The notes under the pieces were generated by a model, which worked only from the letters and a program-made list of their open reading frames with translations, searched no databases and was not told the DNA's origin. This document shows positions 39,256 through 64,000 of a stretch of DNA of 64,000 bases, in pieces; within the stretch, counting starts at the first letter, position 1, and each line of letters opens with the position of its first letter. Source of the stretch: Plantactinospora soyae (GTDB lineage: Bacteria; Actinomycetota; Actinomycetes; Mycobacteriales; Micromonosporaceae); assembly GCF_014874095.1 (NCBI RefSeq), contig NZ_JADBEB010000001.1, positions 372,001 to 436,000 of the forward strand, read 5' to 3'. The position numbers and the translations under genes were made by a program.

Positions 39256-39537
39256 GACGGTCTCCCTCCGAGGGCGGAGCGACCGGGTCCGGCGCTAGTT
39301 GCCCGCACCTAGGATCACCACTCATGCCGTAACTGGCTGTCACGAGGTTGACCAACGGCGCTGGCCGACCGGATTGTCTTAACGGCCGATCAGCATCCCT
39401 GGTCAGCCGTTTGCACAGCCGGTCACGCGGGCCGGATTACCGCCTTCGAGGAACGTGCGGAGCAGCCTCGTACGGCCGAACTCGGCCACGTTGCGCAACT
39501 CCCAGTCGAACCGATGCCGGGCCCTCTCGACCCTGGG

Positions 39538-42363
39538 TCACGGGCGGAAGACGATCGACGTCCCGTTGACCAGCACGGGCTGGTTGACCGAGAACGGCAA
39601 CGCGACGGTGCCGGCGGCGTTCTCGATGCCGACCGTCGCCGAGTCGCCCCGCTCCCGACCGCCGGTGTCCAGATCCCGGTAGTCGAAGACGATCTCCCCG
39701 TTCTCCGCCAGTGCCGCCGCGAAGCTCAGCCGCGCGGACGTGGAGCCGTACAGGCCGACGTTGCGCCACTCGACCACGAACCGCCGCTCCGGCGCCGTAC
39801 CGGTGACCGCGGTCCGGACGCTCGAATCCGCCCGAACGTACAGGTCGTCCCAGAACGGGTACACGGCGGCGTTCGGCCGCTCGGCGTCCGGCAGTCCCCC
39901 GTTGACCGGCTGCGCGCTGACCGGGTCCACGAACGACACGAATCCGTTGGCCGACACCCAGGCCCGGGAGTACGCCTGGCCGAACAACCGGACCGGGAAC
40001 GGCAGCGCCACCTCGGAGACCGCGTCGTCCCCGGTCAGCGACAGCACCCCGCCGTCCGCCGTCGGCCAGGGTCGACCGGTCTCGGTCGTACAGGTGTAGC
40101 CGGAGGCGGCACCGCAGCCGGCGGCACCGGCGTACGTCGCCGTGTAGCCGGTGGCGGTGGCCGGTGCCGTGACGACGTGCGTCGCCGCACCCCCGTCGGA
40201 CCAGTCGGCGAACGAGTACGGCACCCCACCGACCTGCTGCTTCCCCGGCGCGCTGACCGTGTTCGTCGACCCGACGATCACCGTACGGGTGAACGGGGCG
40301 GTTCCGGTGATAGCGCCGACGCTGAGCTGCAGCCCGGGCGGGTTGGTGGCGAACGTCAGGTCGACGGTGTACGGGTCGAGCCGCCGTACGACGGTGTTCG
40401 CCAGCCCCTGCGCGTCCGTCGCGGTCAGCTCCAGCTCCAGATACGACGGATACTCGTGATCCGGCGCCACGAACGAGCCCTCGGCCACGCCCGACCACTC
40501 GCGTACCGGATGGGTGTGGCAGTTGTCGACCGACTCGCAGTGCTGCATCCGCAGCCGCCAGGACAGCGCGGACGCCGGCAGGGTGCCCTGCTGCGGATCG
40601 GTGGCGTGACCGCTGAAGGTCAGCGTCTCGCCCACCCGCCACTGGGTACCCGGTCCGGGGGTGTCCAGCACGGCCGTCGGAGCGCCGTTGCCGGGCTGGA
40701 TCCGCACCGTGCCGCTCGCCGAGACGTCCAGGGTGTCGGTGACGGTCAGCGTCGCGGTGTAGCTGCCGTTCTCCGGGTAGCGGAAGCTGGTCGTCGGGGT
40801 GGTGGCGTCGACCGTGCCGTCGCTGGTGAAATCCCACGCGTAGCGGAGCCGGCCCGCGTCGGCCGGGTCCGGATCGGTCGAGCCGGTGCCGTCGAACGCG
40901 ACGGTGAGCGGCGCGGGCCCGCTGGTCGGCGTCGCGCTGATCACCGCGGTCGGCGGCTGGTTGCCGGGGAAGTACCGGATCCGCCGCACGGTGCCGCCGG
41001 CCATGTCGGCGTAGTAGAGCTCGCCGCCCGGCCCGACGGCCAGGTCCACCGGCCCGGCGGCGGCCTGACCGAACGTCTGGATGTTCGCCGGGTTCGGCAG
41101 TCCGCCGGCCGTACCCGGGCGCATCGCCCAGATGCAGCCGCGCGAGTAGTCGGCGAAGAACAGCGCTCCGGCGTACGCCGCCGGATAGCTGCCGCCGCTG
41201 CCGGGATAGAACGCCAGTCCGGATACGGCGTCCCCGCCCGAGCCGCAGGTCTCCCCGGGCACCACCGCCGCGCCGTGGTTGTAGGTGTAGTAGGGCGCGG
41301 TCTGCCCGGCACCGGTGTAGAGGGTCTCGCAGAGGTTCAGGTTGGCGTTGTCGTAGCTGGCCATCCGGCCGGCGCCCTCGTAACAGGGCCAGCCGAGGTT
41401 GGTGACGGCGGCGGTCGGGTCGACCACCCGGTCGATCTCCTCCCAGCCGTTCCAGCCGACGTCGCCCAGCCACACCTCGTTGGTCCCCGGCCGGATCGTG
41501 AACCGGTACGGGTTACGGGTTCCGTGCGCGACGATCCGGCGGGCGTTGAGGTCCGCCGAAGCGATCAGCGGGTTGCCGGCGGCGGCCGCCCCGGTCGCCG
41601 GGTCGAGCCGCAGCACCGCGCCGTCCAGGTTGGTCGGGTCGGCGGTGGTCCGGACGTCCTGGGACCGCAGCGCGCCGCCCTGGGCGCCCGGGGGCGTCAT
41701 GGTGCCGCCCGGCGGGTCGCCGCACGGATTCGCCGGGCGGCCCAGCTGGCCGTAGTCGACGGCGCTGAAGCTGGCGCCGTCGCCGGCACTGGCGTAGAGC
41801 ATGCCGTCGGCGCCGAAACGCAGGTCGCCGACGGAGTGGCTCGGGTACTGCTGGCACCAGTCCTGAATCAGCACCTGCTCGGTGCCGGTCATCACGTCAC
41901 CGCCGGCCCGCAGCCGGGAGAGCCGGCCGGTGACCAGACAGCGGCCGTTGTTGGCGTCGGCGCAGACGTCGTTCCACACCGGCGCGGTCTGCCCCGGCGG
42001 TGCGTCGTAGGTGTAGAGCACGTAGACCCAGGGATTGGCCGGGAAGTCGGCCGGCAGCGCCAGTCCGAGCAGGCCACGGTCCCACTGGTTGTGCACGATC
42101 CTGGACAGGTCGGCGAAGACCGTCGGGGTCGGGTCGGCCAGGTCGGCGAAGACCTTCACCCGGCCGCCCTTCTCGGCCACGAACACCCGGCCGTCCGGGG
42201 CGAACTCGATGTTCGTCGGCTCGGTCAGCCCGCTGAAGACGACCTGCTCCTGGAAGCCCGTCGGCAGGGTCACCGCCGCCGCCGGCTCACCCCGAAGTGG
42301 ACTCAGTACGCTGACCAGGAGTGTCAGCACCAGACTCGTCCCTATGCCACGACGCAGGCGCAC
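39538..42363 (-). CDS. Secreted sugar dehydrogenase-like protein with PKD and lectin-like C-terminal domains (copy 2)
   Basis: A 941-residue paralogue of the adjacent gene with the same domain order: signal peptide (cleavage after EPAAA), propeller (IEFAPDGRVFVAEKGGRVKV; GTRNPYRFTIRPGTNEVWLG; FADYSRGCIWAM), PKD domain (AFDGTGSTDPDPADAG; YAWDFTSDGTVDATTP), Ig-like part, FADWSDGGAATHVVTAPATA segment and terminal sandwich. GTG 42363 has GGGGAGGG about 8 nt upstream. The 282 bp between the copies hold no gene. The two are clearly related but diverged along their whole length, so the duplication is old. Confidence 0.9.
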   Translation of the reverse strand: MRLRRGIGTSLVLTLLVSVLSPLRGEPAAAVTLPTGFQEQVVFSGLTEPTNIEFAPDGRVFVAEKGGRVKVFADLADPTPTVFADLSRIVHNQWDRGLLGLALPADFPANPWVYVLYTYDAPPGQTAPVWNDVCADANNGRCLVTGRLSRLRAGGDVMTGTEQVLIQDWCQQYPSHSVGDLRFGADGMLYASAGDGASFSAVDYGQLGRPANPCGDPPGGTMTPPGAQGGALRSQDVRTTADPTNLDGAVLRLDPATGAAAAGNPLIASADLNARRIVAHGTRNPYRFTIRPGTNEVWLGDVGWNGWEEIDRVVDPTAAVTNLGWPCYEGAGRMASYDNANLNLCETLYTGAGQTAPYYTYNHGAAVVPGETCGSGGDAVSGLAFYPGSGGSYPAAYAGALFFADYSRGCIWAMRPGTAGGLPNPANIQTFGQAAAGPVDLAVGPGGELYYADMAGGTVRRIRYFPGNQPPTAVISATPTSGPAPLTVAFDGTGSTDPDPADAGRLRYAWDFTSDGTVDATTPTTSFRYPENGSYTATLTVTDTLDVSASGTVRIQPGNGAPTAVLDTPGPGTQWRVGETLTFSGHATDPQQGTLPASALSWRLRMQHCESVDNCHTHPVREWSGVAEGSFVAPDHEYPSYLELELTATDAQGLANTVVRRLDPYTVDLTFATNPPGLQLSVGAITGTAPFTRTVIVGSTNTVSAPGKQQVGGVPYSFADWSDGGAATHVVTAPATATGYTATYAGAAGCGAASGYTCTTETGRPWPTADGGVLSLTGDDAVSEVALPFPVRLFGQAYSRAWVSANGFVSFVDPVSAQPVNGGLPDAERPNAAVYPFWDDLYVRADSSVRTAVTGTAPERRFVVEWRNVGLYGSTSARLSFAAALAENGEIVFDYRDLDTGGRERGDSATVGIENAAGTVALPFSVNQPVLVNGTSIVFRP

Positions 42364-50949: not shown

Positions 50950-51843
50950 TCAGCAAGGGTACGGGCGGCTCCGCATCCGGCGCCGGAGCAGTAGCCAGCC
51001 CAGCAGCAGCACGAGGACGAGTGCCACTCCGGACCCGATCAGGCGCACCGGCAGGATGACGATCGTGGCCGTCGCCTCCCGGGTCACCCCGTCCGGGCCG
51101 GCCGCCGCGACGGTGACCCGGCAGACGCAGAACAGCGGAGGATCGGCCCACCGGGTGCTGATCTCTCGGTCGGCGCCCCGTAACAGGGTGAAATCGGGAA
51201 ACGGGACAGTTTCCCCCGCAACCTGGGCCTGAAGCCTGCCGTCCCCGACGAACTCGCGGCGCACGGTGCCCGCATTGCGTACCGTCGCCGTGAGGGCGAG
51301 CGGACCGTTCACGGCGAAACCCGGCGCGCGAAGGCCGGTGACGTCGACCGACTCGACGGCCTGGCCGGGCACCGTGACGTACACCGGTGCGCCGACGCTC
51401 CGACGCACGCCGACGCCGGCCCCACCGGGCCGGGGCGGCACCGAGAAGATCATCGCGACCTGGTGCTCGCCGGGTTCGGCAGTGGCCGGCAGGGCGATGT
51501 GCAGGCTCACCTGCCGGGCCGCTCCGCCTTCCAGCCGGAAACTGTCCGGCCGCGCGGTGACCCACTCGACGGCCGAGTGGGGCGCGTCGGGCCGGAACCG
51601 GAGTTCTCCGTCGCGTCCGGCCGTGAAGCTCGCCTTTCGGACGAGGATGTCGATCGGGGCCCGACCATGGTTGGTAACCGTGAACTGCCTCGGCCGTTCG
51701 ATCTGGTCCGCTGGCACGATCACCCGGGTCGGGCTGACCGTCAGCGCGAAGTCCGAAGGCTCCGACGGTTGGCCTGACGCCGGGGCGGCCGATGCCAGCG
51801 TGAGCATGACCGGGAGGACGATCCGCGCCACCCTGGTGCGCAT
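50950..51843 (-). CDS. Membrane-anchored Ig-fold protein, DUF916/WxL-interacting-like
   Basis: A 297-residue exported protein. A signal peptide (about residues 1-24) ends in ASG. An N-terminal Ig-like domain follows (FALTVSPTRVIVPADQ; RQFTVTNHGRAPIDILVR; LPATAEPGEHQVAMIFSVPP), similar in layout to DUF916 domains of WxL-interacting proteins. A second beta domain contains ALTATVRNAGTVRREF. A C-terminal span (about 266-287) ends in RRRMRSRPYPC, so most of the protein faces outside. ATG 51843 shares one base with the preceding stop (TGATG). It probably acts with the giant repeat protein encoded upstream. Confidence 0.8.
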   Translation of the reverse strand: MRTRVARIVLPVMLTLASAAPASGQPSEPSDFALTVSPTRVIVPADQIERPRQFTVTNHGRAPIDILVRKASFTAGRDGELRFRPDAPHSAVEWVTARPDSFRLEGGAARQVSLHIALPATAEPGEHQVAMIFSVPPRPGGAGVGVRRSVGAPVYVTVPGQAVESVDVTGLRAPGFAVNGPLALTATVRNAGTVRREFVGDGRLQAQVAGETVPFPDFTLLRGADREISTRWADPPLFCVCRVTVAAAGPDGVTREATATIVILPVRLIGSGVALVLVLLLGWLLLRRRMRSRPYPC

Positions 51844-52532
51844 CAGTCGACGCTGAGCGCGCTGGCGACGGGCTCGGCCGGGTCGGAGCGGGGCGCGGGC
51901 ACCTCCCGGTGCTCCAGCCGGCGCCGGCGCCGACGCCGGGCGATGACGACGATCGCGGCCAGCCCGCCGACGACGGCCAGTGCCCCTGCGGCGATGCCAT
52001 ACCAGATTCCGTCGGAGCCGGACCGGTCGACGCGGGTGACGGCGGCACCCGCCGGGAGGAGGTCGGAGTGCGTCGCGCAGACCAGCGGCTTGGCGCCCCC
52101 CTTCACGGTTGCGCAGGCCACGGTGGCCAGTCGAAGCACCTCGTCGGGGGTCTGGCCGACCCGGGCGACGGTGGTGAGGGTGGATTCCTTGCCCGCCTTC
52201 AGGTTGACCGACCAGGTGACGCTGCCGGCGCGGGCGGTACCGTCCCGGTCGGCGGAGACGAGGGTCAGGCCGGCGGGCAGGCTCTGGGAGATCTGGAGCG
52301 ATCTGGTCTCGGTGGTGCCGAGATTGCGGACCCTGACCTTGTACGTCAGTTCGTCGCCCGCCGCGACGGCGGTCCGGCCGTTGTCCACCGCGATGCTGAG
52401 CAGTGGCTGTTTCGCGTCGGCCGTCGCCGAAGGTTTCGGTGCCACCTCACCTTTGGGCGGCGACATTGCGGCTACCGGCGCCGCGATCGCCCAGGCGACG
52501 AGCGCGGTCGCAAGGACAGCGATGCTTGGCAT
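51843..52532 (-). CDS. Membrane-anchored single DUF11/CARDB-like domain protein
   Basis: A 229-residue type I membrane protein from ATG 52532 (GGAG upstream). A signal peptide ends near VAAM. One Ig-like DUF11 domain (LSIAVDNGRTAVAAGDELTY; VRVRNLGTTETRSLQISQSL; ACATVKGGAKPLVCATH) carries the same cysteine pair as each repeat of the giant protein. A span (about 183-204: IWYGIAAGALAVVGGLAAIV) and a run of seven arginines hold it in the membrane. It overlaps the DUF916-like gene by 1 nt and lies 17 nt downstream of the giant gene. Confidence 0.85.
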   Translation of the reverse strand: MPSIAVLATALVAWAIAAPVAAMSPPKGEVAPKPSATADAKQPLLSIAVDNGRTAVAAGDELTYKVRVRNLGTTETRSLQISQSLPAGLTLVSADRDGTARAGSVTWSVNLKAGKESTLTTVARVGQTPDEVLRLATVACATVKGGAKPLVCATHSDLLPAGAAVTRVDRSGSDGIWYGIAAGALAVVGGLAAIVVIARRRRRRRLEHREVPAPRSDPAEPVASALSVD

Positions 52533-52549
52533 GATGCTCCTTATGACGG

Positions 52550-55500
52550 CTACTGGGTGATTGCCACGTACTCCAACGTCGCGGAGTACGAGTCGGCAAC
52601 GGTGGACATTGGAATGACGGCCTGGTAGTCGCTGCTGATCGCGTCTCCTCCGGGCGCGGATGGCGTCGACTGACGGTGCACGATGACCGGGGTCACCGCC
52701 GACAGGGGCTGGAAGACCTGGGTGCCGCTCCCCCGTACCCGTAGGTTCTCGATCGGAATGGTGTAGGGGTTGTCGGGATCGGCCGGCACGAAAGCGGGCA
52801 CCAGCGCCTGGACCGCCACCACATAGCCGGTAGGGCTGTTCGTGGTGACCGTCATGGTGACCGCGTCTTCCACGACGATCACGGAGTCGGGATGAACCCC
52901 GATGGCGAATCCGGGTATCAGCGAGGTCAGGGTGAGGAACTGCCCCACCACGGAGGTCTCGGTGACACACCGCAGATCGTCGTTGCCGGCCGGGCAGTTG
53001 TTGCCGAGCACGCTGGAGCTGACGCTGTTGACAACCAACCCGTCGCCGGTGACGGGTTGGTTGACGGTGACGGTGTAGACGATCGCGGCGGTCGCGCCGA
53101 CGACCAGGTCGCCGGTCCAGGTCAGGTTGGACGCGGCGTAGCTCACCGTGCCGGTGGTGGTCGTGGCGTCGGCGTTGTAACTGGCGTCGTCGAGCACCCC
53201 GGCGAGCGAGTCGGTCACCGTGGCGCCGGTGTACGGCGTCTGGCCGGCGTTCGTGATCAGGACGCTGTACTGGACGACCCCGCCGGCCACCACCTCGGCG
53301 GTGTTGGCGGTCTTGGTGATGATCAGCTCCGGGACGAGGACGTTGACCGTCACCTCGCACGCCGGGCCACCGGGGCAGTTGGCGCCCACGGTGTCGGAGG
53401 TGACGGTGTTGACGAGGGTCGTGTCGCCGGATGCCGGGAAGTCGACCGTGACCGAGTAGGTGATGACAGCCGTGACCCCGACCGGTAGGTCTCCGGTCCA
53501 GGTCAGCACCGGGGCGTCGTAGCTGACCGTACCGACGGTCGCCTCGGCGTCGTCGTTGAAGTCGGCTTCGTCCAGGACCTCGCTGAGCAGGTCGTCGAAC
53601 GTCGCCCCGGTGTACGGCGTCTGCCCGGTGTTGGCCACCGTGACCGTGTAGGTGACCTGGTCCCCGACCGCGGCCGTGACGGTGTCGGCGGTCTTGGCGA
53701 TGCTCAGCCCGGGAATGAGGATCGCCACCGTGGCGGCGCAACGCGGATCGGTGCCGCCCACCGGGCAGTTGCTGCCCTGGGCGGCGGAGGTGACGACGTT
53801 GTTGAGAATCCGTCCACCGGTCTGCGCACCGTTGACCGTCACGGTGTAGGAGATCTCGACGGCGGCACCGACCGGCAGGTCACCGCGCCAGACCAGGTTG
53901 GGTGCCGTGTACAGCAGCGTGCCGGTGGCGGCGGTGGCGTCGGCGTTGTAGGTGGCGTTCGCGAGCAGCCCACTGAGCGAGTCGGTGACGGTGGTGTCGA
54001 CGTACGGCGTCTCGCCGGTGTTCGTCGCGGTGACGGTGTAGGTGACGGTGTCGCCCGGGGTGGTGTTCGGACTGTCGGCGGTCTTCACGATGGTGAGCCC
54101 GGGAACGAGCACGTTGACGGTCAACGTGCAGGCCGGTCCCGGCGAGGCGGGCGGGCAGTTGCTGCCCGGTGCGGTGGTGGTGACGGTGTTGGTGATGACC
54201 CGGTCGCCGAGGTCCGGATTGTTGACGGTCACCGTGCCGGTGATGGTGACGACTCCGCCGACCGGGATGTCACCGGTCCAGGTCACGTTGGGGCCGACCA
54301 CGCTGAGGGTGCCGGAGCTGGCGACCTGGTCGCCGTTGGGCCGCGCGTCGTCGATGATGCCCAGCAGGCTGCTGTTGATCTGGATTCCGGTGTAGGCGGT
54401 CGGGCCGATATTGGTGATGGTGCCGGTACGCCGGATCACCTGCCCCGGGACGGCGGTGGTCACGTCGGCCACGTTGGTGATCGAGAGCGCCGGGATGAGC
54501 ACGGTGACGGTGACGGCACAGGCCGGGTCCGTGCCGGCGGGTGGGCAGTTGCCGCCCACGGTGGTGGAGCTGACCGCGTTGGTCAGGATCTGGTCGCCGG
54601 TGGCGGGACTGTCGATCGCGACCGAATAGGTGATCACGGCCGAGGCGCCCACCTCGAGGTCTCCGGTCCAGGTCAGCACCGGATCGGTGTACGACACGAC
54701 GCCCACGGTCGCGGCGGCCGTCTGGTAGCTGGCGTCGTCGAGTACCTCGGTGAGGTCGTCGGTCAGGCTGGCCCCGGTGTACGGGGTCTGACCGCTGTTG
54801 GTGACGGTGATGGTGTACCCGAGGGTGCTGCCCGGCGTGGTGGTGGCCGAGTCGGCATGCTTCGCGATGCTCAGTGCCGGCAGCAGCACGCTGACGGTCG
54901 CCGCACAGTCGGGGTCGCTGCCACCGGCCGGGCAGTTGCTGCCCGGCGTGCTGGAGGTGACGACGTTACTGAGGACCCGACCGCCGGTCTGCGGATCGTC
55001 GGCGGTGACCGTGTAGCTGATGGTGGCCGTCGCCCCGATCGCCAGGTCACCGGTCCAGGTGATCACCGGGTCGGCGTAGGAGACCACGCCGACATCGGCA
55101 TCGGCGTCACCGTTGTAGGTCGCGTCCAGCAGCAGGCCGGCGAGGCTGTCGGCGACGGTGGCGCCGGTGTACGGGGTCTCGCCGGTGTTGGTGACCGTGA
55201 TCGTGTAGCCGACGGTGCCGCCCGGCACCACGGTGGCGGTGTCCGCGGTCTTGAGCACCGCCAGGGCCGGGACGAGGACGGTGACCGTGGCGGTGCACGC
55301 CGGATCGGTACCGCCCGCCGGGCAGTTGTTACCGGGTACGGCCGAACTGACCACCGAGGTCATGATCCTGTTACCGGTAACCGGATTGTTCACCGTGAAC
55401 GATCCGGTGACGACGAGAACCTCGCCGACCCCGAGGTTGCCGGTCCAGCGGATCGAGGCGATGCCCGGGATGAGGGCCAGGGTGCCCACGCTGGCCGTGG

Positions 55501-58500
55501 CATCGCCGTTGTAGGTGCCGTCGTCGACTGCCCCGGCGAAGCTGGCGTCGATGACGATGTCGGTGTACGGCGTCGCGCCGGTGTTCTCCACCCGGGTGCT
55601 GAACTGGATCTGCGCCCCCGGCACCGTGGTGGGGGCGTTGGCCGAGTTCGCGATGGTCAGTTCCGACACCGTCACGACGGCCGTACAGGCGGGGTTGGTG
55701 TTGCCGGCGGCACAGGTGTTGCCGGCGGCCGTGGAGCTGACCGTGCTGGTCAGGAGGTGGTTGCCCGCGTCCGGGGTGTTGACGGTGACCGAGTAGGTGA
55801 TCGTCGCCGATGATCCGGGCGCGAGGGATCCCGTCCAGACCAGGTCCGTGCCGGTCAGCACGACGACGCCGACACTCGGGGTCGCGTCGCCGTTGTAGGT
55901 CGCGTCGTCCAGGAGGCCGGCCAGCGCGTTCGTCACGGCGACACCGGACTGTGCGGTCTGCCCGGTGTTGACCATGTTGACGGTGTAGGTCACCGTGCCG
56001 CCGGCGGTCGTGCTGACGGCGCCGGCGGTGATGCCGATGCTCAGGGCCGGCGTGAGTACGGCCACCGTCAGACCGCAGCCGGGGTTGGGACTGGCCGGCG
56101 GGCAACTGTTGCCGACCTCGGCCGACGAGACCCGGTTCGCCAGCAACTTGTCGCCCGGGTCCGGCGTCAGCACGGTCATCGGGTAGGTGATGACGGCGCT
56201 CGCCCCCACCCCGAGGTCCCCGGTCCAGGTCAGCGTCGACGCCCCGAAGGACAGCGAGCCGGTCGTGGCGGTGGCGGTTCCGTCGACATAGGTCGCGTCG
56301 TCCAGCGCACCGGCCATGTCGTCGGCGACCACCGCTCCCAGGTACGGCGCGGTGCCGGTGTTGCTGATCGTGATGGTGTAGTTGACCGTGCCGCCAGGGA
56401 CCGTGGTCGGCCTGTCGGCGGTCTTGACGATGCTCATCGCCGGTAGCAGGACGTCCACGCTCGCGGTACACCGTGGATCGGTTCCGCCGGTCGGGCAGTT
56501 GTTGCCCGGGATCGTCGAGCTGGCCGTGCTGGAGAGCACCTTGTTTCCCGGATCCGGGTTCTTCACCCGGAAGTCGCTGGCGACCGTGATCGTCGCGCCC
56601 ACCGGAATGTCCCCGGTCCAGACCAGACCGGCGGGGGTGATCGCGATGGTTCCCGAGGAGACCTCGTCGTGGATGGGGTCGGCGTCGTCGATCATGTCGC
56701 TGCCGCCGAACGCGACACTGACCCCGAAGAACGGGGTACTGCCGCCGTTGACCATGGTGGTCGTGAAGCGGACCACGCCACCGGGGGTGACATTGGCGCG
56801 GTCGGCGGTGTTGGCGATGGTCAGTGCCGAAACGGTCACCGTCGCGGTGCACCGCAGATCTGTGCTCTCGTCGGAGCAGTTGCTGTCCAGGGAGCCGGAT
56901 TCCACGGTGTTGACCAGCACGGCGTTACCGGCGAGGGCGTCCACCGTCACGCTGTAGGTGAGCACGACCGAACCGTTCGCCGGGAGGTCACCCGTCCACT
57001 CCAGCAGCGGCTCGTCGTAGCTGAAGGTGCCACCGCCGTTCGACGAGGCGTCGTTGTTGTAGCTGGCATCGCTGAGGACGTCGGCCAGATCGTCGTTGAG
57101 TTCCGCGCCCAGGTACGGGATGCCGCCGGAGTTCTCGACGACGATCGTGTACGTCACCACCGAGCCGGCGACGGTGGACGCCACATCAGCGGTCTTGGTG
57201 TACGAGAGCGTGGTTTCACCGACGACCGCGACGGTGACGACGCACCGGGGGTCGGTGCCGCCCACCGGACAGTTGTTGAGGGCGGCGCCCGAGGTGATCG
57301 TGCTGACCAGTGACGAGTCTCCCTCGACGGGGTTGTCAATGGTCACGGTGAAGACGAGCGTGACGGTCGCGCCGACCGCCAGGTCGCCGCTCCAGGTGAG
57401 CACCGGCGCGGTGTAGCTCGCCGTGCCACCGCCGGTGACCACCGTGTCGTCGTTGAACGTCGCGTCGTCGATGACCTCGCTGAGATCGTCCGCGACGCTG
57501 ATCGCGGTGTAGTCGAGCTGGCCGGAGTTGGTGATGGTCACCGTGTAGGTCAGGGTGCTGCCCGGCGTCACCGCCGTTGAGTCGGCCGTGGAGACGATGG
57601 TCAACCCGGGTGTCAGGACCGCCACGGTGGAGGTGCAGCCGACCGCCTGACCCGCCGCCGAGCAGGAACTACCGACCGCGGTGGAGCTGACCGTACTGAT
57701 CATGGTCTTGTCGCCGGGATCGGGGTCCCGGACGGTGACGGTGTAGTCGATCGTCGCCACCGCGCCGACCGCCAGGCTGCCGGTCCAGGTCAGCGTGGTG
57801 CCGGCGAAGCCGACCGAACCGGCGCTGGCCACCGCGTCGGCGTTGTAGGTCGCGTCGTCCAACACCCCCGCCAGCTCGTTGGTGACGCTGATGGCCGAGT
57901 ACGGCGACGTCCCCGAGTTGGTCATCGTCACGGTGTAGCCGACGATCTGACCGGGGGCGGCGGCCGAGGTGTCCGCGACGGTGGTGATGCCGAGTCCCGG
58001 GATAAGCACCGCGACGCTGATCGAGCACTGCGGGTCCGCGCTGCCGGATGGGCAGTTGTTGCCCGGCACCGTCGAAACCGACGAGCCCGTGAGCAGGCCG
58101 TCACCTGTGTACGGATCGACAACGGTGACGCTGCCGCTCAGGTTGACCGTCCCGCCGACGGGGATGTCACCAGTCCAGAGCGAGCCGGTGGATCCGATGG
58201 TCAGGATGCCCGACGACGCGGTCTGGTCCCCGTTTCCGATGACCTCGTCGATCATTTCCGACCCATCGAAGGCCACGCTGATGCCGGTGTAGGGGACCTG
58301 ACCAGTGTTGGTGTAGGTCGTGTCGAACCGGAGCACGCCACCCGGCGTCACCGTGGCCGCGTCCGCCGTGGTGACGATCTCCAGCCTGGCCACCGGCACG
58401 GCTACCACGCACCGGGTGTCGCTGCCGCCGGCCGGACAGTTGCTGCCGGCGGCTGCCGAGACGACCTGGTTGGTCAGGATCAGGTCGCCCCCGACCGGGT

Positions 58501-61500
58501 CGTCCACCGTCACCGAATAGGTGATCGTCACCGTGGCCCCGAGCGCCAACGGACCGGTCCAGCTCAGGTTGGGGCTGGTGAAGCTGGCCGAGCCGGCGGA
58601 GGCCGACACGTCGTTGTTGTAGGTGGCGTCGTCGAGCACCCCGGCGAGCGCGTCGGTGACACTCAAACTCGGATACGCGGTCTGGCCGGAGTTGGTGATG
58701 GTGACGGTGTAGCCGACCACGGCGCCCGGCGCCGTGCTGGCGACGCCGGACGTCACCGCGATCACCAGGCCCGGCACCAGGACCTGGACCGTCGCCGAGC
58801 AACGCGGGTCGGTTCCGCCGGCCGGACAGTTGTTGCCGGGGGTGGTGGAGACCACGGTGTTGCTCAACAACTTGTCGCCGGGGTCCGGGTTCAGAATCGT
58901 CATCGAGTAGGTGACCGACACGGTGGCGCCGACGGCCAGGTTACCGACCCAGCTCAGCACCGGAGCCGCATACGACACGCTGCCGGCCGATGCGACCGCG
59001 TCGTTGTTGTAGGTGGCGTCGTTCAGCGCATTGGCCAGGGAGTCGGTGAAGTTCGCGCCGACGTACGCGGTCTGGCCGCTGTTCGTCACGGTGATCGTGT
59101 AGGTCACCGTGCCGCCCGGCGTCGTGGTGGCCGTGTCGGCGGTCTTCTCGATCGCCAGGCCCGGGGTCAGCACCGTGACGGTGGCCGTACACGCCGGGTC
59201 GGTCCCGCCGGTCGGGCAGTTGTTGTTGGCCGCCGTCGAGGTGACCGTCGAGGTCAGCAGCTGCGAACCAGGGTTGGGATTCAGCACCGTCACGGAGAAC
59301 CGGACGGTGGCGGTCGCGCCGGCTGCCAGCGCGCCGGTCCAGGTCAGCACCGAGCTGGCGACGCCGACCGTGCCGCTGTCCGCCGTCGCATCCCCGTTGT
59401 AGGTGGCGTCGTCGAGCACATCGGTCAGCGACTCGGTGACGGTCGCCGCCGGATAGGCGCTCTCTCCGGTGTTCGCGATCGTGATCGTGTAACTGACGGT
59501 GCCGCCCGGCGTCGTGGTGGACGCGCTCGGGGTGTTGCTGATGGTCAGTCCGGGCAGCAGCACGCCGACCACTGCCGTACACCGGAGGTCGGTGCTGCCC
59601 GTCGCACAGTTGGCACCCACCGTCGGGGACACCACAGTGTTGGTCAGCGACCGGTCCCCACTATCGGGAACGGCGACCGTGACCGAGTACGTGATGGTCG
59701 CGGTCGCACCCACGGCGAGGTTGCCGGTCCAGGAGAGGGTCGGGCTGCTGTAGCTGACCACTCCGGAGGTGGCGCTGGCGTTGGCGTCGTAGACGGCGTC
59801 GTCGAGCACTCCGGCCAGCGAGTCGGTGAAGGTCGCCCCGACGTAGGCCGACTGGCCGGTGTTGGTCACCACGATCTGGTAGGCCACCACGTTCCCGGGC
59901 GTCGTGCTCGGCGTGTTCGCCGTCTTGACCAGCGTCAACCCGGGAATGACGATGGTCACCGTCGCGGTGCACCGCGGATCGGTGCTGCCGCCGGCGCAGT
60001 TGTTGCCGACGGCTGTGGACGAGACCACGCTGGTCAGGACCCGATCATCACCGGCCGGATCATTCAGTGTCACGCTGAAGGTGATCGTGACCGTGCCACC
60101 GACCGCGACGTTTCCAGTCCAGGTCAGCGTCGAACTGGTGAAGCTGAGCACGCCACTGCTGGTGGTCGCATCGCCGTTCCAGACCGCTCCGTCGAGCACC
60201 TCCAACAGGGCAGTGGTCACGCTGATTCCGGTGTACGCGGTCTGCCCGGTGTTCGTGACGGTCACCGTGTAACCCACCGTCGAGCCCGGGGTCGCGGTTG
60301 ACGTACTCGCCACGTTGGTCAGGACCAGTCCCGGCACCAGAACGGTGACCACGGCAGTGCAGCGGACGTCGGTGCCACCGGATGGACAGTTGTTGCCCAG
60401 GGTGGTGGAGACCACCGTGTTCGTCATGGTCCGGTTGCCGGGGTCGGGGCTCCGGACGGTCACCGAATAGCTGACGGTCACGCTCGCGCCGACGGCAAGA
60501 TTGCCGCTCCAGACGAGATTGGGCGAGGTGAAGGAGAGCGTCCCGGCTGTCGCCGTCGCGTCGACGTTGTACGTCGCATCATCCAGCACGCTGGTCAGCG
60601 CGTCGGTGAAACCCGCCCCGGTGTACGCCGCCTGACCGGTGTTGGTCACGGTGACGGTGTAACGCACCACGTCACCGGGCGTCGCGGTGGCCGCGTCCGC
60701 CGTCTTCACGAAGGCCAGGGCGGCGATCGGCACGGTCGTCGTACACCGGATGTCCAGGCTGCCCGACGCGCAGTTGGTGCCCAACGTCGCGGAGGTGACC
60801 GTGTTGGTCAGAAGCTGGTTTCCGGTGACCGTGCCGTTGACGGTGACCGAGTAGGTGATGGTCGCGACCGCGCCGGCGGCGAGATCACCCGTCCAGCTCA
60901 GGGTCGAGCCGGCGAACGACACCGCTCCGGAGGTCGTCGTCGCGTCGCCGTTGTAGGCCGCGTCGTCCAGGACAGCAGCGAGCGGATCGGTCAGCGCGAC
61001 GCCGGTGAACGCCACCGACGAGGTGTTGTTGACCGTGATCGAGTAGTGCACGGTCTGCCCGGCGGCCACGCTGGAGAGGTCAGCGCTCTTCGTCACGATC
61101 AGCGGTCCGGCCGCGATCACCAGGTTGACGGCCTCGGTCGCCTCCTGACCGGCGGCGTCGACCACCCGTACGGTGAAGGGGTAAGTGCCTGCCGTGGTCG
61201 GTGTGCCGGAGAGCAGCCCGGTGCCGGCGTCGAGGGTCAGCCCCGGCGGCAGACTGCCTACGGAGACCGACCAGACGAACGGCGCGGTGCCCCCGGTGAC
61301 GGTCAGCGGAACGCTGTAGGGGACGCCCACCTGGCCCGGGGGTGGCGGCGGGAAGCTCAGCGTGGGTGAGGCGGTGATCCCGAGCGCGACCGTCCGGGTG
61401 GCGCTCTGCGCGAACGAGTCCACCACCCGAACGGTGAAGGAGTAGTTGCCGGCCAGCGTCGGGGTACCGGAGAGCTGCCCGGTACCCGTGTTGAGGGTCA

Positions 61501-64000
61501 GACCCGGCGGGAGGCTGCCTGCGGTGATCGACCAGGTGAACGGCGCGGTGCCGCCGGTCACGGTGAGCGGGATGCTGTAGCCGATGCCGACCTGGCCCTG
61601 TGGTGGCGCCGGAAAGGTCAGCGTCGGCGCCGGCGCGATGACCACAGTCAGCGCCTGGGTGGCGGACTCGCCGCTGGCGTCGAGCACCTGGACGGTGAAC
61701 GCGAAGGTTCCCGCGGTGGTCGGGGTGCCGGAAAGTAGCCCGGTGCCGGCGTTGAGGGTCACTCCGGCCGGCAGGGTCCCGGCACTGATCGACCAGACGA
61801 ACGGCGCGGTGCCGCCGTTGACCGTGAGCGGGACACTGTACGCCGCGCCCACCTCGCCGAGCGGCGGTGCCGGGTTCGACAGCGTGGGCGAGACGTTCGG
61901 GATCACCGGCGTGGACTGGGCCGACGGTGATCCGGTCCCACCGGCGTTCGTCGCCGCCACCGTGAAGGTGTACGTGATGCCGGGGGTCAGCCCGGTCACC
62001 GTACGGGTGGTTCCGGTGCCGGTGAAGGTCTGCGGCGTCTGCGCCACGCCCCCGACGTACGGGGTGACCACGTACGAGAGGATCGGGCTGCCGCCGTTGC
62101 TGGGCGCGGTCCAGGTCAGCGTGGCCGACGAGTCCCCCGCACTCGCCGCGGTGATCGTCGGCGTGCCGGGCAGCACGAACGGCACCACCGCGTTCGAGGC
62201 GGGACTGGCCGAACCGGTGCCGATGGCGTTCACCGCCGCGACCGTGAAGGTGTAGGAGGCGCCGACGGTCAGGCCGGTGAGCGTACGGGTGGTGGTGGAG
62301 GCGTCGTACGAGATCGGGGTCTGGGCCACCCCGTTCCTGGTGGGCGTGATGATGTAGCCGGTGATCGGGCTGCCGTTGCTCGACGGCGCCGTCCAGCTGA
62401 CGGTGGCGCTGGACAGGCCGGCGGTCGCGGTGGGGGCCACCGGGGTGGCCGGGCGGTCGGTGTAGACATAGTTGGCGGCGGCGGCGACGCCCCGGGTGAC
62501 GACGGTGACGGTCACCGTGGCAGCGCTGCCGCGGGCAGGCATCGAGGAGATGGCGAGGGTCCCGTCGCCGTTGACGGTGAAACAACCGGCCGCCGGCCCG
62601 GACTGGCACGGCAGCAGCGTCACGGGCGTTCCGGCCCGCTGCTCGGCCGTGGTCCCGATCTCGATGGCGGTGGCGCCGGCGAGGTTGGTGCCCCCCACTG
62701 TCACGGGGATGCCTCCGGCGATTGTGCTCGACGCCGGGGTGACGGTGATCCCGCTGGGCGTGGCCGGGACCGTCCCGATGACCGTCGTTGTGGAGATGCC
62801 GGGGTTGGCATCGATCGAGGACGCGGTCGCCGTCGAGCCGGTCTGGATGAGGGCGGGGGTCACGCCGGTGCCGGTGACGATGCCGACCACCGTGATCGGG
62901 GTCAGGGTGGATCCGTTCGAGAACGGGGCGTTGCTGTTGGTACACGTGATCCGCTGCCCGACCGGTGCCGCGCAGGTCCAACCCGACCCGAACGCGCCGA
63001 CCGGCACCACCCCGGTCGGTAGCGTCTCGGTCACCGACACCGGGGCGGTCTCGTCGGCCCCGGCGTCCACTCCCGCGACTACCGAATAGGTCACCGGATC
63101 ACCGGGCTGCGGCGTCGGACCGGTGTAGCTGGTCTGTGTCACGTTCAGGTCCGGCACCGGGTTGAAGGTGACCACCCTGACGTTGTCGACCTCGTGGTTG
63201 TCCACGACCGACCCGGTGGAGCCCACCCAGCCGAAGGCGAGCTGGCGCGGCACCCCGTTGCTGTTCAACCAGGTCGCCGAGGGGTACAGACCGGGGGCGA
63301 CCGCGGGTAGTGGACCTTCCAGGCTTCGCGCGGCCTGGCCGACGGGCGTGAACCGCACCAGATACCGGCCGGCCGCGACCACCAGCCCGGAGGCAGTGGT
63401 GAAGGACGACGTCGTCGGGTTGATGACCACCTCGACCGGTACGACCGACGCCGCGCGGGTGGCGGCCCGTAACGGGACCACCGGTGAGGAGGCGTTGGTG
63501 GCGGTGCTGTTCAGCCCGCAGTACCCGACCGTGCCCCGGCCCGGTCCCCGGACGACCACCTGGCCGGGGATCCTGGCACCGGACGAGATGAACGGCGGAT
63601 CGACGCAGCCACTGCCCTGGTACGTGCTGGTGCTGTAGTTCCCGTACACGTCGAACCCGATGCCCAGGTACCCGTTCGCGAGGCCGTTCAGGCTTCTGGT
63701 GCCCGAGTACCCCAGGTCGCCACCGGACTGGCCGAGGGGGGCCGGCGCGGTCGGATTGGCGGGGTCGACCGCAGCCAGGGCGAAGGCCATCCCGTCCGCG
63801 CCGAAGGTGGCGCTGCCCCACTGGTAGAGGTTGAACGTGACGTCCAGGCCCATCGAGGTGGGGACGCTCGCCGCACCGAAGACACCGCCGGTCTTGCCGG
63901 CAGCGGTGTCCGTGAGGCGCAGCTTGCCCGTGCCCTGTGGATCGGTGGCCCCCGCGCAACTGCGCAGCGGCCCCGTGGCGGCGTTGCCCGCTGCGGTCAG
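52550..64000 (-). CDS. Giant secreted lectin/DUF11-repeat surface protein (open at right edge)
   Basis: At least 3,816 residues; the frame is still open at 64000, so the start and signal peptide are missing. In order from the right: L-type lectin domain (TGKLRLTDTAAGKTGGVFGA; NGLANGYLGIGFDVYGN); a DUF11-like unit; an IPT/TIG domain (ITVTPASSTIAGGIPVTVGG); two FN3 domains (ATVSWTAPSSNGSPITGYII); three putative-Ig domains (FTVRVVDSFAQSAT type); 21 DUF11 repeats (52943-61108); and a unique 130-residue C-terminal domain ending SATLEYVAITQ. No LPXTG motif or C-terminal span is visible, so anchoring probably needs the two downstream membrane proteins. Confidence 0.92.
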   Translation of the reverse strand: MTAAGNAATGPLRSCAGATDPQGTGKLRLTDTAAGKTGGVFGAASVPTSMGLDVTFNLYQWGSATFGADGMAFALAAVDPANPTAPAPLGQSGGDLGYSGTRSLNGLANGYLGIGFDVYGNYSTSTYQGSGCVDPPFISSGARIPGQVVVRGPGRGTVGYCGLNSTATNASSPVVPLRAATRAASVVPVEVVINPTTSSFTTASGLVVAAGRYLVRFTPVGQAARSLEGPLPAVAPGLYPSATWLNSNGVPRQLAFGWVGSTGSVVDNHEVDNVRVVTFNPVPDLNVTQTSYTGPTPQPGDPVTYSVVAGVDAGADETAPVSVTETLPTGVVPVGAFGSGWTCAAPVGQRITCTNSNAPFSNGSTLTPITVVGIVTGTGVTPALIQTGSTATASSIDANPGISTTTVIGTVPATPSGITVTPASSTIAGGIPVTVGGTNLAGATAIEIGTTAEQRAGTPVTLLPCQSGPAAGCFTVNGDGTLAISSMPARGSAATVTVTVVTRGVAAAANYVYTDRPATPVAPTATAGLSSATVSWTAPSSNGSPITGYIITPTRNGVAQTPISYDASTTTRTLTGLTVGASYTFTVAAVNAIGTGSASPASNAVVPFVLPGTPTITAASAGDSSATLTWTAPSNGGSPILSYVVTPYVGGVAQTPQTFTGTGTTRTVTGLTPGITYTFTVAATNAGGTGSPSAQSTPVIPNVSPTLSNPAPPLGEVGAAYSVPLTVNGGTAPFVWSISAGTLPAGVTLNAGTGLLSGTPTTAGTFAFTVQVLDASGESATQALTVVIAPAPTLTFPAPPQGQVGIGYSIPLTVTGGTAPFTWSITAGSLPPGLTLNTGTGQLSGTPTLAGNYSFTVRVVDSFAQSATRTVALGITASPTLSFPPPPPGQVGVPYSVPLTVTGGTAPFVWSVSVGSLPPGLTLDAGTGLLSGTPTTAGTYPFTVRVVDAAGQEATEAVNLVIAAGPLIVTKSADLSSVAAGQTVHYSITVNNTSSVAFTGVALTDPLAAVLDDAAYNGDATTTSGAVSFAGSTLSWTGDLAAGAVATITYSVTVNGTVTGNQLLTNTVTSATLGTNCASGSLDIRCTTTVPIAALAFVKTADAATATPGDVVRYTVTVTNTGQAAYTGAGFTDALTSVLDDATYNVDATATAGTLSFTSPNLVWSGNLAVGASVTVSYSVTVRSPDPGNRTMTNTVVSTTLGNNCPSGGTDVRCTAVVTVLVPGLVLTNVASTSTATPGSTVGYTVTVTNTGQTAYTGISVTTALLEVLDGAVWNGDATTSSGVLSFTSSTLTWTGNVAVGGTVTITFSVTLNDPAGDDRVLTSVVSSTAVGNNCAGGSTDPRCTATVTIVIPGLTLVKTANTPSTTPGNVVAYQIVVTNTGQSAYVGATFTDSLAGVLDDAVYDANASATSGVVSYSSPTLSWTGNLAVGATATITYSVTVAVPDSGDRSLTNTVVSPTVGANCATGSTDLRCTAVVGVLLPGLTISNTPSASTTTPGGTVSYTITIANTGESAYPAATVTESLTDVLDDATYNGDATADSGTVGVASSVLTWTGALAAGATATVRFSVTVLNPNPGSQLLTSTVTSTAANNNCPTGGTDPACTATVTVLTPGLAIEKTADTATTTPGGTVTYTITVTNSGQTAYVGANFTDSLANALNDATYNNDAVASAGSVSYAAPVLSWVGNLAVGATVSVTYSMTILNPDPGDKLLSNTVVSTTPGNNCPAGGTDPRCSATVQVLVPGLVIAVTSGVASTAPGAVVGYTVTITNSGQTAYPSLSVTDALAGVLDDATYNNDVSASAGSASFTSPNLSWTGPLALGATVTITYSVTVDDPVGGDLILTNQVVSAAAGSNCPAGGSDTRCVVAVPVARLEIVTTADAATVTPGGVLRFDTTYTNTGQVPYTGISVAFDGSEMIDEVIGNGDQTASSGILTIGSTGSLWTGDIPVGGTVNLSGSVTVVDPYTGDGLLTGSSVSTVPGNNCPSGSADPQCSISVAVLIPGLGITTVADTSAAAPGQIVGYTVTMTNSGTSPYSAISVTNELAGVLDDATYNADAVASAGSVGFAGTTLTWTGSLAVGAVATIDYTVTVRDPDPGDKTMISTVSSTAVGSSCSAAGQAVGCTSTVAVLTPGLTIVSTADSTAVTPGSTLTYTVTITNSGQLDYTAISVADDLSEVIDDATFNDDTVVTGGGTASYTAPVLTWSGDLAVGATVTLVFTVTIDNPVEGDSSLVSTITSGAALNNCPVGGTDPRCVVTVAVVGETTLSYTKTADVASTVAGSVVTYTIVVENSGGIPYLGAELNDDLADVLSDASYNNDASSNGGGTFSYDEPLLEWTGDLPANGSVVLTYSVTVDALAGNAVLVNTVESGSLDSNCSDESTDLRCTATVTVSALTIANTADRANVTPGGVVRFTTTMVNGGSTPFFGVSVAFGGSDMIDDADPIHDEVSSGTIAITPAGLVWTGDIPVGATITVASDFRVKNPDPGNKVLSSTASSTIPGNNCPTGGTDPRCTASVDVLLPAMSIVKTADRPTTVPGGTVNYTITISNTGTAPYLGAVVADDMAGALDDATYVDGTATATTGSLSFGASTLTWTGDLGVGASAVITYPMTVLTPDPGDKLLANRVSSAEVGNSCPPASPNPGCGLTVAVLTPALSIGITAGAVSTTAGGTVTYTVNMVNTGQTAQSGVAVTNALAGLLDDATYNGDATPSVGVVVLTGTDLVWTGSLAPGSSATITYSVTVNTPDAGNHLLTSTVSSTAAGNTCAAGNTNPACTAVVTVSELTIANSANAPTTVPGAQIQFSTRVENTGATPYTDIVIDASFAGAVDDGTYNGDATASVGTLALIPGIASIRWTGNLGVGEVLVVTGSFTVNNPVTGNRIMTSVVSSAVPGNNCPAGGTDPACTATVTVLVPALAVLKTADTATVVPGGTVGYTITVTNTGETPYTGATVADSLAGLLLDATYNGDADADVGVVSYADPVITWTGDLAIGATATISYTVTADDPQTGGRVLSNVVTSSTPGSNCPAGGSDPDCAATVSVLLPALSIAKHADSATTTPGSTLGYTITVTNSGQTPYTGASLTDDLTEVLDDASYQTAAATVGVVSYTDPVLTWTGDLEVGASAVITYSVAIDSPATGDQILTNAVSSTTVGGNCPPAGTDPACAVTVTVLIPALSITNVADVTTAVPGQVIRRTGTITNIGPTAYTGIQINSSLLGIIDDARPNGDQVASSGTLSVVGPNVTWTGDIPVGGVVTITGTVTVNNPDLGDRVITNTVTTTAPGSNCPPASPGPACTLTVNVLVPGLTIVKTADSPNTTPGDTVTYTVTATNTGETPYVDTTVTDSLSGLLANATYNADATAATGTLLYTAPNLVWRGDLPVGAAVEISYTVTVNGAQTGGRILNNVVTSAAQGSNCPVGGTDPRCAATVAILIPGLSIAKTADTVTAAVGDQVTYTVTVANTGQTPYTGATFDDLLSEVLDEADFNDDAEATVGTVSYDAPVLTWTGDLPVGVTAVITYSVTVDFPASGDTTLVNTVTSDTVGANCPGGPACEVTVNVLVPELIITKTANTAEVVAGGVVQYSVLITNAGQTPYTGATVTDSLAGVLDDASYNADATTTTGTVSYAASNLTWTGDLVVGATAAIVYTVTVNQPVTGDGLVVNSVSSSVLGNNCPAGNDDLRCVTETSVVGQFLTLTSLIPGFAIGVHPDSVIVVEDAVTMTVTTNSPTGYVVAVQALVPAFVPADPDNPYTIPIENLRVRGSGTQVFQPLSAVTPVIVHRQSTPSAPGGDAISSDYQAVIPMSTVADSYSATLEYVAITQ
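52943..61108 (-). repeat. Array of 21 DUF11 repeats of about 130 residues
   Basis: Each unit follows the pattern LxIxKTADxxTxTPG, TVTNTGQTPYTGA, DDATYNGDA, LTWTGDLAVGA, TYSVTV and NNCPxGGTDPRC, ending TVxVL. Every unit has exactly two cysteines in the last motif, probably a disulfide. Units 8, 12, 15 and 18 form a variant class (MIDD or IIDD in place of LDDATYNGD, and WTGDIPVGG). DNA identity is not exact, so the array is old. Confidence 0.93.

Follow-up and report, generated by a model that had tools for sequence, protein, structure and literature searches.

A giant stalk protein of Plantactinospora soyae encoded beside a WxLIP-superfamily membrane protein: a probable variant of the WxL anchor plan

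The locus and the giant stalk protein

The 9.7 Mb genome of Plantactinospora soyae, assembled in one contig, encodes three neighbouring minus-strand genes within positions 372,001-436,000, a stretch of 64,000 nucleotides that was analysed as a whole and that we refer to as the window. The giant gene is followed after a 17-nt gap by the gene for a small protein, P2, which overlaps the gene for a second, P3, by one nucleotide (TGATG). The features are as follows, in window coordinates.

52550..64000, minus strand: giant stalk protein, 3,935 aa by extension of the open reading frame to an ATG, with 357 nt more beyond the window edge
63164..64000, minus strand: N-terminal legume-lectin-like domain of the giant, residues 86-398, by remote similarity; its first ~34 residues lie outside the window
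61133..62440, minus strand: two fn3 and three He_PIG Ig-like domains of the giant, by Pfam, with approximate boundaries
52967..61126, minus strand: 21 Cys-paired DUF11/DUF7927 repeats of the giant, by Pfam, 11 of them with a full Lys-Asp-Asn isopeptide triad
52553..52942, minus strand: C-terminal domain (CTD) of the giant, 130 residues, with a pilin/TasA-like predicted fold and no Pfam family at cut-off
51843..52532, minus strand: P2, with signal peptide, one DUF11 domain with a Cys pair, membrane span and basic tail
50950..51843, minus strand: P3, assigned to the WxLIP/DUF916 superfamily, with two predicted Ig-like domains and a membrane span
51121..51129, minus strand: CxC motif in P3 domain 2 (residues 239-241), conserved in 22/22 P3 proteins that have this domain

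The giant reading frame is free of stops over 3,951 codons, and counting from its first ATG gives the 3,935 residues, which begin with a Sec-type signal recognised by eye. There is no LPXTG-like motif in the last 150 residues, the combination of LPXTG-like motif, span and basic tail typical of a sortase substrate is absent, and the most hydrophobic 19-residue segment of the mature protein scores 1.85 against 2.59 and 2.64 for the spans of P2 and P3. P2 has 229 residues with one DUF11 domain (E 4e-14), a Cys pair and one span. These results agree with the initial annotation, which had described three contiguous leftward genes spaced by 17 and -1 nt, a secreted protein of more than 3,800 residues with 21 cysteine-paired repeats (we count 21, each with its Cys pair) and neither LPXTG nor membrane span, and a membrane protein carrying a single domain of the same Cys-paired kind.

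The lectin tip that had also been claimed is likely, as a remote likeness. It scores 27 bits with the Pfam Lectin_L-type model, for which the cut-off is 78, and all five matches in a single-sequence search of the PDB are lectins (E 0.03-0.34); a profile of seven lectin-domain sequences gave no PDB match at E<=0.01, so that the label derives from the weak Pfam and single-sequence matches.

The Lys-Asp-Asn triad of DUF11/CLIPPER isopeptide stalks is present in 11 of the 21 repeats. Asn occurs in all 11 repeats of the window's giant that have the Lys and in 2 of the 10 that do not (Fisher p 2e-4), and across 327 repeats from 19 giants Asp/Glu is found in 169/169 repeats with Lys and 30/158 without it, and Asn in 151/169 and 30/158 respectively, although the repeats are related and these counts are therefore not independent events. 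A 2025 survey (PMC12617251) gives the same type of triad for DUF11, with crystal structure 9IFR, and presents that of DUF7927 as a prediction. On this basis Lys-Asn isopeptide bonds are predicted in about half of the giant's repeats.

Among the 19 giants, a set that leaves out those broken by contig ends or frames, only two repeat numbers occur, 21 in seven and 15 in twelve, with no third value, which could mean that the stalk is a molecular ruler or that the giants descend from founders of two lengths. When four Micromonosporaceae giants are compared with that of the window, each of its repeats is most similar to the repeat at the same position (21/21 in each comparison), and the array is therefore old and stable in this family. 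The positional matching breaks outside the family (5/21 in Streptosporangium amethystogenes and 7/21 in Jatrophihabitans), and among the 15-repeat giants it ranges from 1 to 14 of 15.

Other genes lie in the neighbourhood. About 9 kb past the giant's start is a gene for an ice-binding-like protein (L010:15460-16653; PF11999, E 8e-60) whose C-terminal domain is WxL-like and scores 146 bits with an HMM from which this sequence was excluded. Also at this locus are five tandem paralogues (L010:6559-12395), identified by eye, which appear to be secreted and are divergent from the giant, the first having Big_9/cadherin-like domains; this array is not seen beside the giant in Plantactinospora alkalitolerans (G104). 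At 36409-42363 of the window a tandem pair of genes encodes proteins of 948 and 941 residues that appear to be secreted and are similar at their starts.

The C-terminal domain and P3

The CTD, which we file as a new domain on sequence grounds, sits at the extreme C-terminus, with an identical end column in 43 of 43 ORFs (42 genes, one counted twice) that match it at more than 60 bits; a 48-bit match in genome G488 is left out of this count. The AlphaFold model (pLDDT 91.6, pTM 0.83) has as its best structural match the TasA-like protein TLP-1a (E 4.5e-4), the sole match with E<=0.001, and the next matches to TasA and chaperone-usher pilins (E 0.006-0.06) stand among glycoside hydrolases and archaeal filaments or pili. 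The WxL chain of 9i25 is absent among the best 50 of 892 fold matches, and a CTD profile found nothing significant among PDB sequences.

We considered whether the CTD could be a WxL domain by sequence and rejected this assignment. The initial annotation had seen no WxL motif, and there is indeed none in the CTD alignment: the domain does not have the two Trp-x-Leu motifs, the CTD of the window's giant containing no W at all. Furthermore, PF13731 (WxL) does not match it, and three hhalign comparisons with WxL profiles gave 0.3, 21.5 and 9.6%, none of them significant.

Outside the window's family the CTD is also found as a free, secreted, single-domain protein, present in 18 of 21 CTD genomes (6/7 from a contig scan and 12/14 from a class survey), with its gene beside that of P3 in 13 genomes and between the giant and P2 in five. 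Assuming a guessed site of signal cleavage, these proteins have roughly 15 extra residues ahead of the domain. In these 18 genomes the set thus has the composition of a WxL-type cluster, with a C-terminal domain in small and large forms together with a WxLIP-type protein; no small form was found in the five Micromonosporaceae CTD genomes. The three-part system proposed initially is a real multi-gene set, to which these genomes add a fourth member.

P3 has 297 residues and one membrane span, and it gives no match in Pfam or NCBIfam at E<=0.1. The WxLIP_PGBD model PF06030 does not detect it, and of four orthologues scanned two score 12-14 bits, with a cut-off of 27.3, and the other two not at all. 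Profile comparison nevertheless links P3 to WxLIPs that Pfam does detect: against an actinobacterial WxLIP profile that includes loci above the PF06030 cut-off, and from which the P3s had been removed, hhalign gives 99.4% (E 4e-21 over 235 columns), as compared with 0.2% for WxL and 0.9% for DUF11 as controls. A P2 control reaches 62.6% against the P3 profile, in an alignment of 60 columns that lies at the membrane end. A four-sequence comparison with actinobacterial WxLIPs gives 98.8%, and a WxLIP HMM made from four sequences, P3 not among them, detects P3 with a score of 33.6 bits (E 1.5e-9 against a limited set of sequences from its own genome).

The predicted structure has two Ig-like domains ahead of the C-terminal span. 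In the best of five AlphaFold models (mean pLDDT 81.7, the other four 55-61) the fold matches Enterococcus faecium WxLIP 9i1y at rank 2 and 9i25, in which a WxLIP is bound to a long WxL protein, at rank 15 (E 3e-9 to 1e-8); rank 1 and nearly all of the best 50 of 1,660 matches are pilus chaperones, with scores equal to those of WxLIP. Searches of PDB sequences with the P3 profile, and with the actinobacterial WxLIP and WxL profiles, returned nothing significant. From the profile comparisons and the model we regard P3 as a divergent member of the WxLIP/DUF916 superfamily, in keeping with its initial description as a DUF916-like, membrane-anchored Ig protein, albeit one that matches no Pfam model. 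Arg40, near the first strands, is conserved in 24/24 P3 proteins. Domain 2 is missing in two of the 24 genomes (G068 and G196); its CxC motif may possibly help the Cys-rich stalk with redox or disulfide chemistry.

Further pairs of this general kind lie at other loci. The window's genome holds two WxL-like and WxLIP-like gene pairs elsewhere (L048:10620-12249 and L049:9704-11369), below the Pfam cut-offs where scanned, and P. alkalitolerans has such a pair about 0.8 kb from its giant gene (L041:17032-18601). At L050:4332-6945 a WxLIP gene (44 bits, above cut-off) adjoins that of a choice-of-anchor M protein, TIGR03773-like below cut-off, with a WxL domain at its end (26.1 bits, cut-off 25); genes nearby look by eye like those of ABC transporters, so that a protein associated with an ABC transporter would here carry a WxL anchor. 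Finally, at L046/L070 and L047/L071 a distant P3-like protein is followed by an NHL-repeat-like protein whose end resembles the CTD, both by eye.

Distribution of the gene set and the two types of giant

Among 200 genomes of the family, matches of any strength were found for P3 in 78, for the CTD in nine and for P2 in 38, and strong homologues of all three occur in the same five (G000, G104, G068, G186 and G196). The CTD scores 137-263 bits in these five and at most 27.6 in other matches, P3 at least 195.7 with the next at 66.9, and P2 at least 213 with the next at 66.3; the P3 of P. alkalitolerans, from the same genus, is 87% identical to that of the window. Four weak CTD matches (23-28 bits) were dropped, their loci having no visible CTD-like gene.

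A survey of 394 genomes of the class gave a CTD match in 15 and P3 (above 339 bits, the next at 66.6) in 13, all of which have the CTD; the two matches without a close P3 are a 140-residue frame covering most of the CTD in a fragmented assembly (G386) and the 37-residue, 48-bit match in G488. A scan of genome contigs with the CTD found nine loci, seven in additional genomes, of which two are MAGs, and P3 is present in all seven (233-297 bits). In total the CTD is found in 26 genomes, 24 of which have P3. Between 5 and 21 top candidates were scored per genome (in the class survey five for P3 and ten for the CTD), so that absences are not proof, and because the genomes are related kinship inflates the co-occurrence.

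Conserved adjacency had been proposed as a check on the initial annotation, and it is observed: P2 adjoins the giant, or is one small gene apart, in all 23 CTD giants for which the 3′ end is present, and P3 lies in the giant's gene run in 19 of its 24 genomes. In two others P3 is divergent from the giant at the same locus (G446 and G278), in two more it shares a contig with a small CTD gene, the giant being on another contig or not seen (G559 and G535), and in S. amethystogenes it is unlinked to the giant. The gene orders include giant-P2-P3, P3-giant-P2, small-P3-giant-P2 and P3-giant-small-P2 as well as divergent ones. Judged by sequence, these genes constitute a real multi-gene surface-protein set.

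There remains a small chance, which we put very low, that the genes are co-inherited neighbours whose products do not interact; genome kinship does account for part of the co-occurrence, but the association is kept under several arrangements of the genes, the unlinked one included, and close P3 proteins are absent from the genomes with the second type of giant.

This second type comprises seven giants that lie beside a P2-like gene (G007, G040, G061, G108, G159, G168 and G009) and end in LAxTG or [IV]PVTG followed by a span and basic residues. LAxTG is among the sortase motifs listed in PMC13251363, and [IV]PVTG is by our reading a sortase signal. None of the seven has a CTD or a match to the window's lectin domain, and their genomes have no P3 or weak matches only, the best at 42.4 bits (G009), although some hold other WxLIP_PGBD proteins. 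Since the search that led to these giants started from P2-like genes, the presence of P2 beside them is by selection. Non-orthologous P2-like matches occur in 33 genomes; of 12 loci, one of which (L098) was read outside the HMM scan, seven have an adjacent giant and four do not (G062, G026, G147 and G042).

One type of C-terminal end takes the place of the other on related stalks. The CTD and P3 go together and the sortase-type giants have neither the CTD nor a close P3, so that P3 tracks the anchor. A C-terminal anchor of its own had been named as evidence that would speak against a set of cooperating proteins, and it is seen only in these giants, which are more distant and lack a close P3. 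P2-like genes also accompany the seven giants with sortase-type signals, and P2 is therefore probably not the holder. The other finding named as adverse, a giant that is widespread without either partner, is not borne out: P3 is present in 24 of 26 CTD genomes, and P2 is next to, or one small gene from, the 23 CTD giants whose 3′ end is present.

A proposed anchor and its relation to known systems

We consider it likely that the gene set specifies a non-covalent surface anchor of the WxL/WxLIP type, with a motif-less C-terminal domain, which carries a very long adhesin. The giant would be secreted, its lectin-like tip pointing outward on the Ig and fn3 domains, and disulfides would stiffen its stalk of 21 repeats, helped in roughly half of these by Lys-Asn isopeptide bonds. 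The CTD, predicted to be a beta-sandwich, would dock on the Ig domains of membrane-tethered P3, most plausibly by strand complementation close to the very C-terminus of the giant. P2 would be an accessory of the stalk that perhaps guides the repeats in folding or export, but it would not be the anchor. The giant had been thought to need a holder, and P3 is likely to be one, although in its 130-residue CTD the giant also brings a module of its own that is likely to serve in anchoring.

A more specific proposal, to which we attach a modest chance, is that of a Gram-positive donor-strand holdfast, in which a chaperone-like P3 permanently completes the pilin-like CTD and clamps the free C-terminus, the stalk acting as a ruler. 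It draws on the invariant register of the CTD in 42 genes and on P3 Arg40, and where the small CTD protein is present this would join the base or form a short donor-strand fibre. If true, one principle would underlie WxL anchoring, TasA fibres and chaperone-usher pili.

P3 could instead act, tethered to the membrane, as no more than a chaperone that helps the C-terminus of the giant to fold or to be exported, similar to FimC or CsuC, with the giant released or otherwise held. The many pilus chaperones that equal WxLIP among the fold matches of P3, and the resemblance of the CTD model to pilins, would fit such a role, but the giant has no other visible anchor, sortase-type giants of similar length manage without a close P3, and WxLIP has been proposed to bind and stabilise WxL at the cell surface (PMC10599100); we regard this alternative as improbable. 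It is more doubtful again that the holder is P2, with the base of the stalk bound by its one repeat-like domain. Its place next to the CTD giants, or one small gene from them, and a domain of the same type as the giant's repeats are what one would expect of such a holder, and yet P2 also lies beside seven sortase-type giants that need none, P2 having been the route to their discovery, and at four loci a P2-like gene has no giant next to it.

Slimmer still is the chance that the CTD serves polymerisation, with the small CTD proteins forming a donor-strand fibre similar to those of TasA or Csu with the giant at the tip and P3 as membrane base. The fold does resemble TLP-1a/TasA fibres and chaperone-usher pilins, and the free proteins have the additional residues ahead of the domain, but only one fold match has E<=0.001 and glycoside hydrolases and archaeal pili are also among the matches. 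Moreover, only one CTD was found among the ten candidates scored in the window's genome, which would therefore have no fibre subunit.

If the CTD and P3 do form the anchor, they provide soil actinobacteria with a means of holding a protein at the cell surface without the usual sortase bond. Since a sortase signal and the CTD with P3 exchange naturally on related stalks, the function of a WxLIP-type protein becomes directly testable, and the CTD, as a short module, could be grafted elsewhere.

The nearest comparison is with other WxL systems. A published survey places more than 91% of WxL sequences in Firmicutes (PMC9772566), and yet the superfamily is common in Micromonosporaceae: Pfam WxLIP_PGBD (PF06030) is over its cut-off in 91 of 150 genomes of the family and WxL (PF13731) in 38 of 150, so that the initial statement that no actinobacterial equivalent is known fails at the family level. 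Titles and abstract openings of the open-access papers listed disclosed no actinobacterial WxL/DUF916 system of the CTD-P3 kind, and none pairing WxL with Micromonospora. P3 shares its superfamily with the Micromonosporaceae WxL/WxLIP pairs but is itself below Pfam detection, and their WxL-like partner has no significant similarity to the CTD. The sortase-anchored DUF11/CLIPPER adhesins of actinobacteria have a similar repeat stalk, and in seven cases the P2-like neighbour by which they were found, but LAxTG or [IV]PVTG with span and basic tail replaces the CTD, and there is no close P3 and no match to the window's lectin domain. Chaperone-usher pili and TasA/TapA are alike in predicted folds only, P3 being chaperone-like and the CTD pilin- or TasA-like, and P3 differs from the chaperones of such pili in having a membrane span.

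WxL clusters combine a WxLIP with small and large WxL proteins (PMC10599100, PMC9772566), and an AlphaFold prediction for Firmicutes proteins in PMC10599100 (2023) has a strand of the WxLIP inserted into a gap in the sandwich of the WxL domain. That account holds it very unlikely that the WxLIP helix lies in the bacterial membrane and proposes the host membrane, whereas the 2006 description of the csc clusters (PMC1534035) takes CscA to be membrane-anchored, the view that we adopt for P3. In these clusters, from Lactobacillales and Bacillales, CscA (DUF916-DUF3324-span) accompanies the small WxL protein CscB, the large WxL protein CscC and CscD. The last domain of CscC proteins has 130-140 residues, and in some of them a legume-lectin-like domain of ~300 residues comes first (PMC1534035); the giant has a lectin-like N-terminus and an end domain of 130 residues. 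P3 and CscA are two-Ig-domain proteins of one superfamily with a C-terminal span, and in both systems a small free copy of the end domain can accompany the large protein, although the window's family yielded no such copy. The differences are that the CTD lacks WxL motifs and lies outside Pfam WxL, that the stalk has 15 or 21 repeats whereas CscC proteins mostly have 500-900 residues in all, and that the one-repeat membrane protein P2 replaces the short LPxTG protein CscD. The initial annotation had recognised the logic of WxL/DUF916 complexes here, and the plan is the same as in the Firmicutes clusters; by this analogy we take the gene set to work like a WxL cluster and to be a variant of a known anchor plan.
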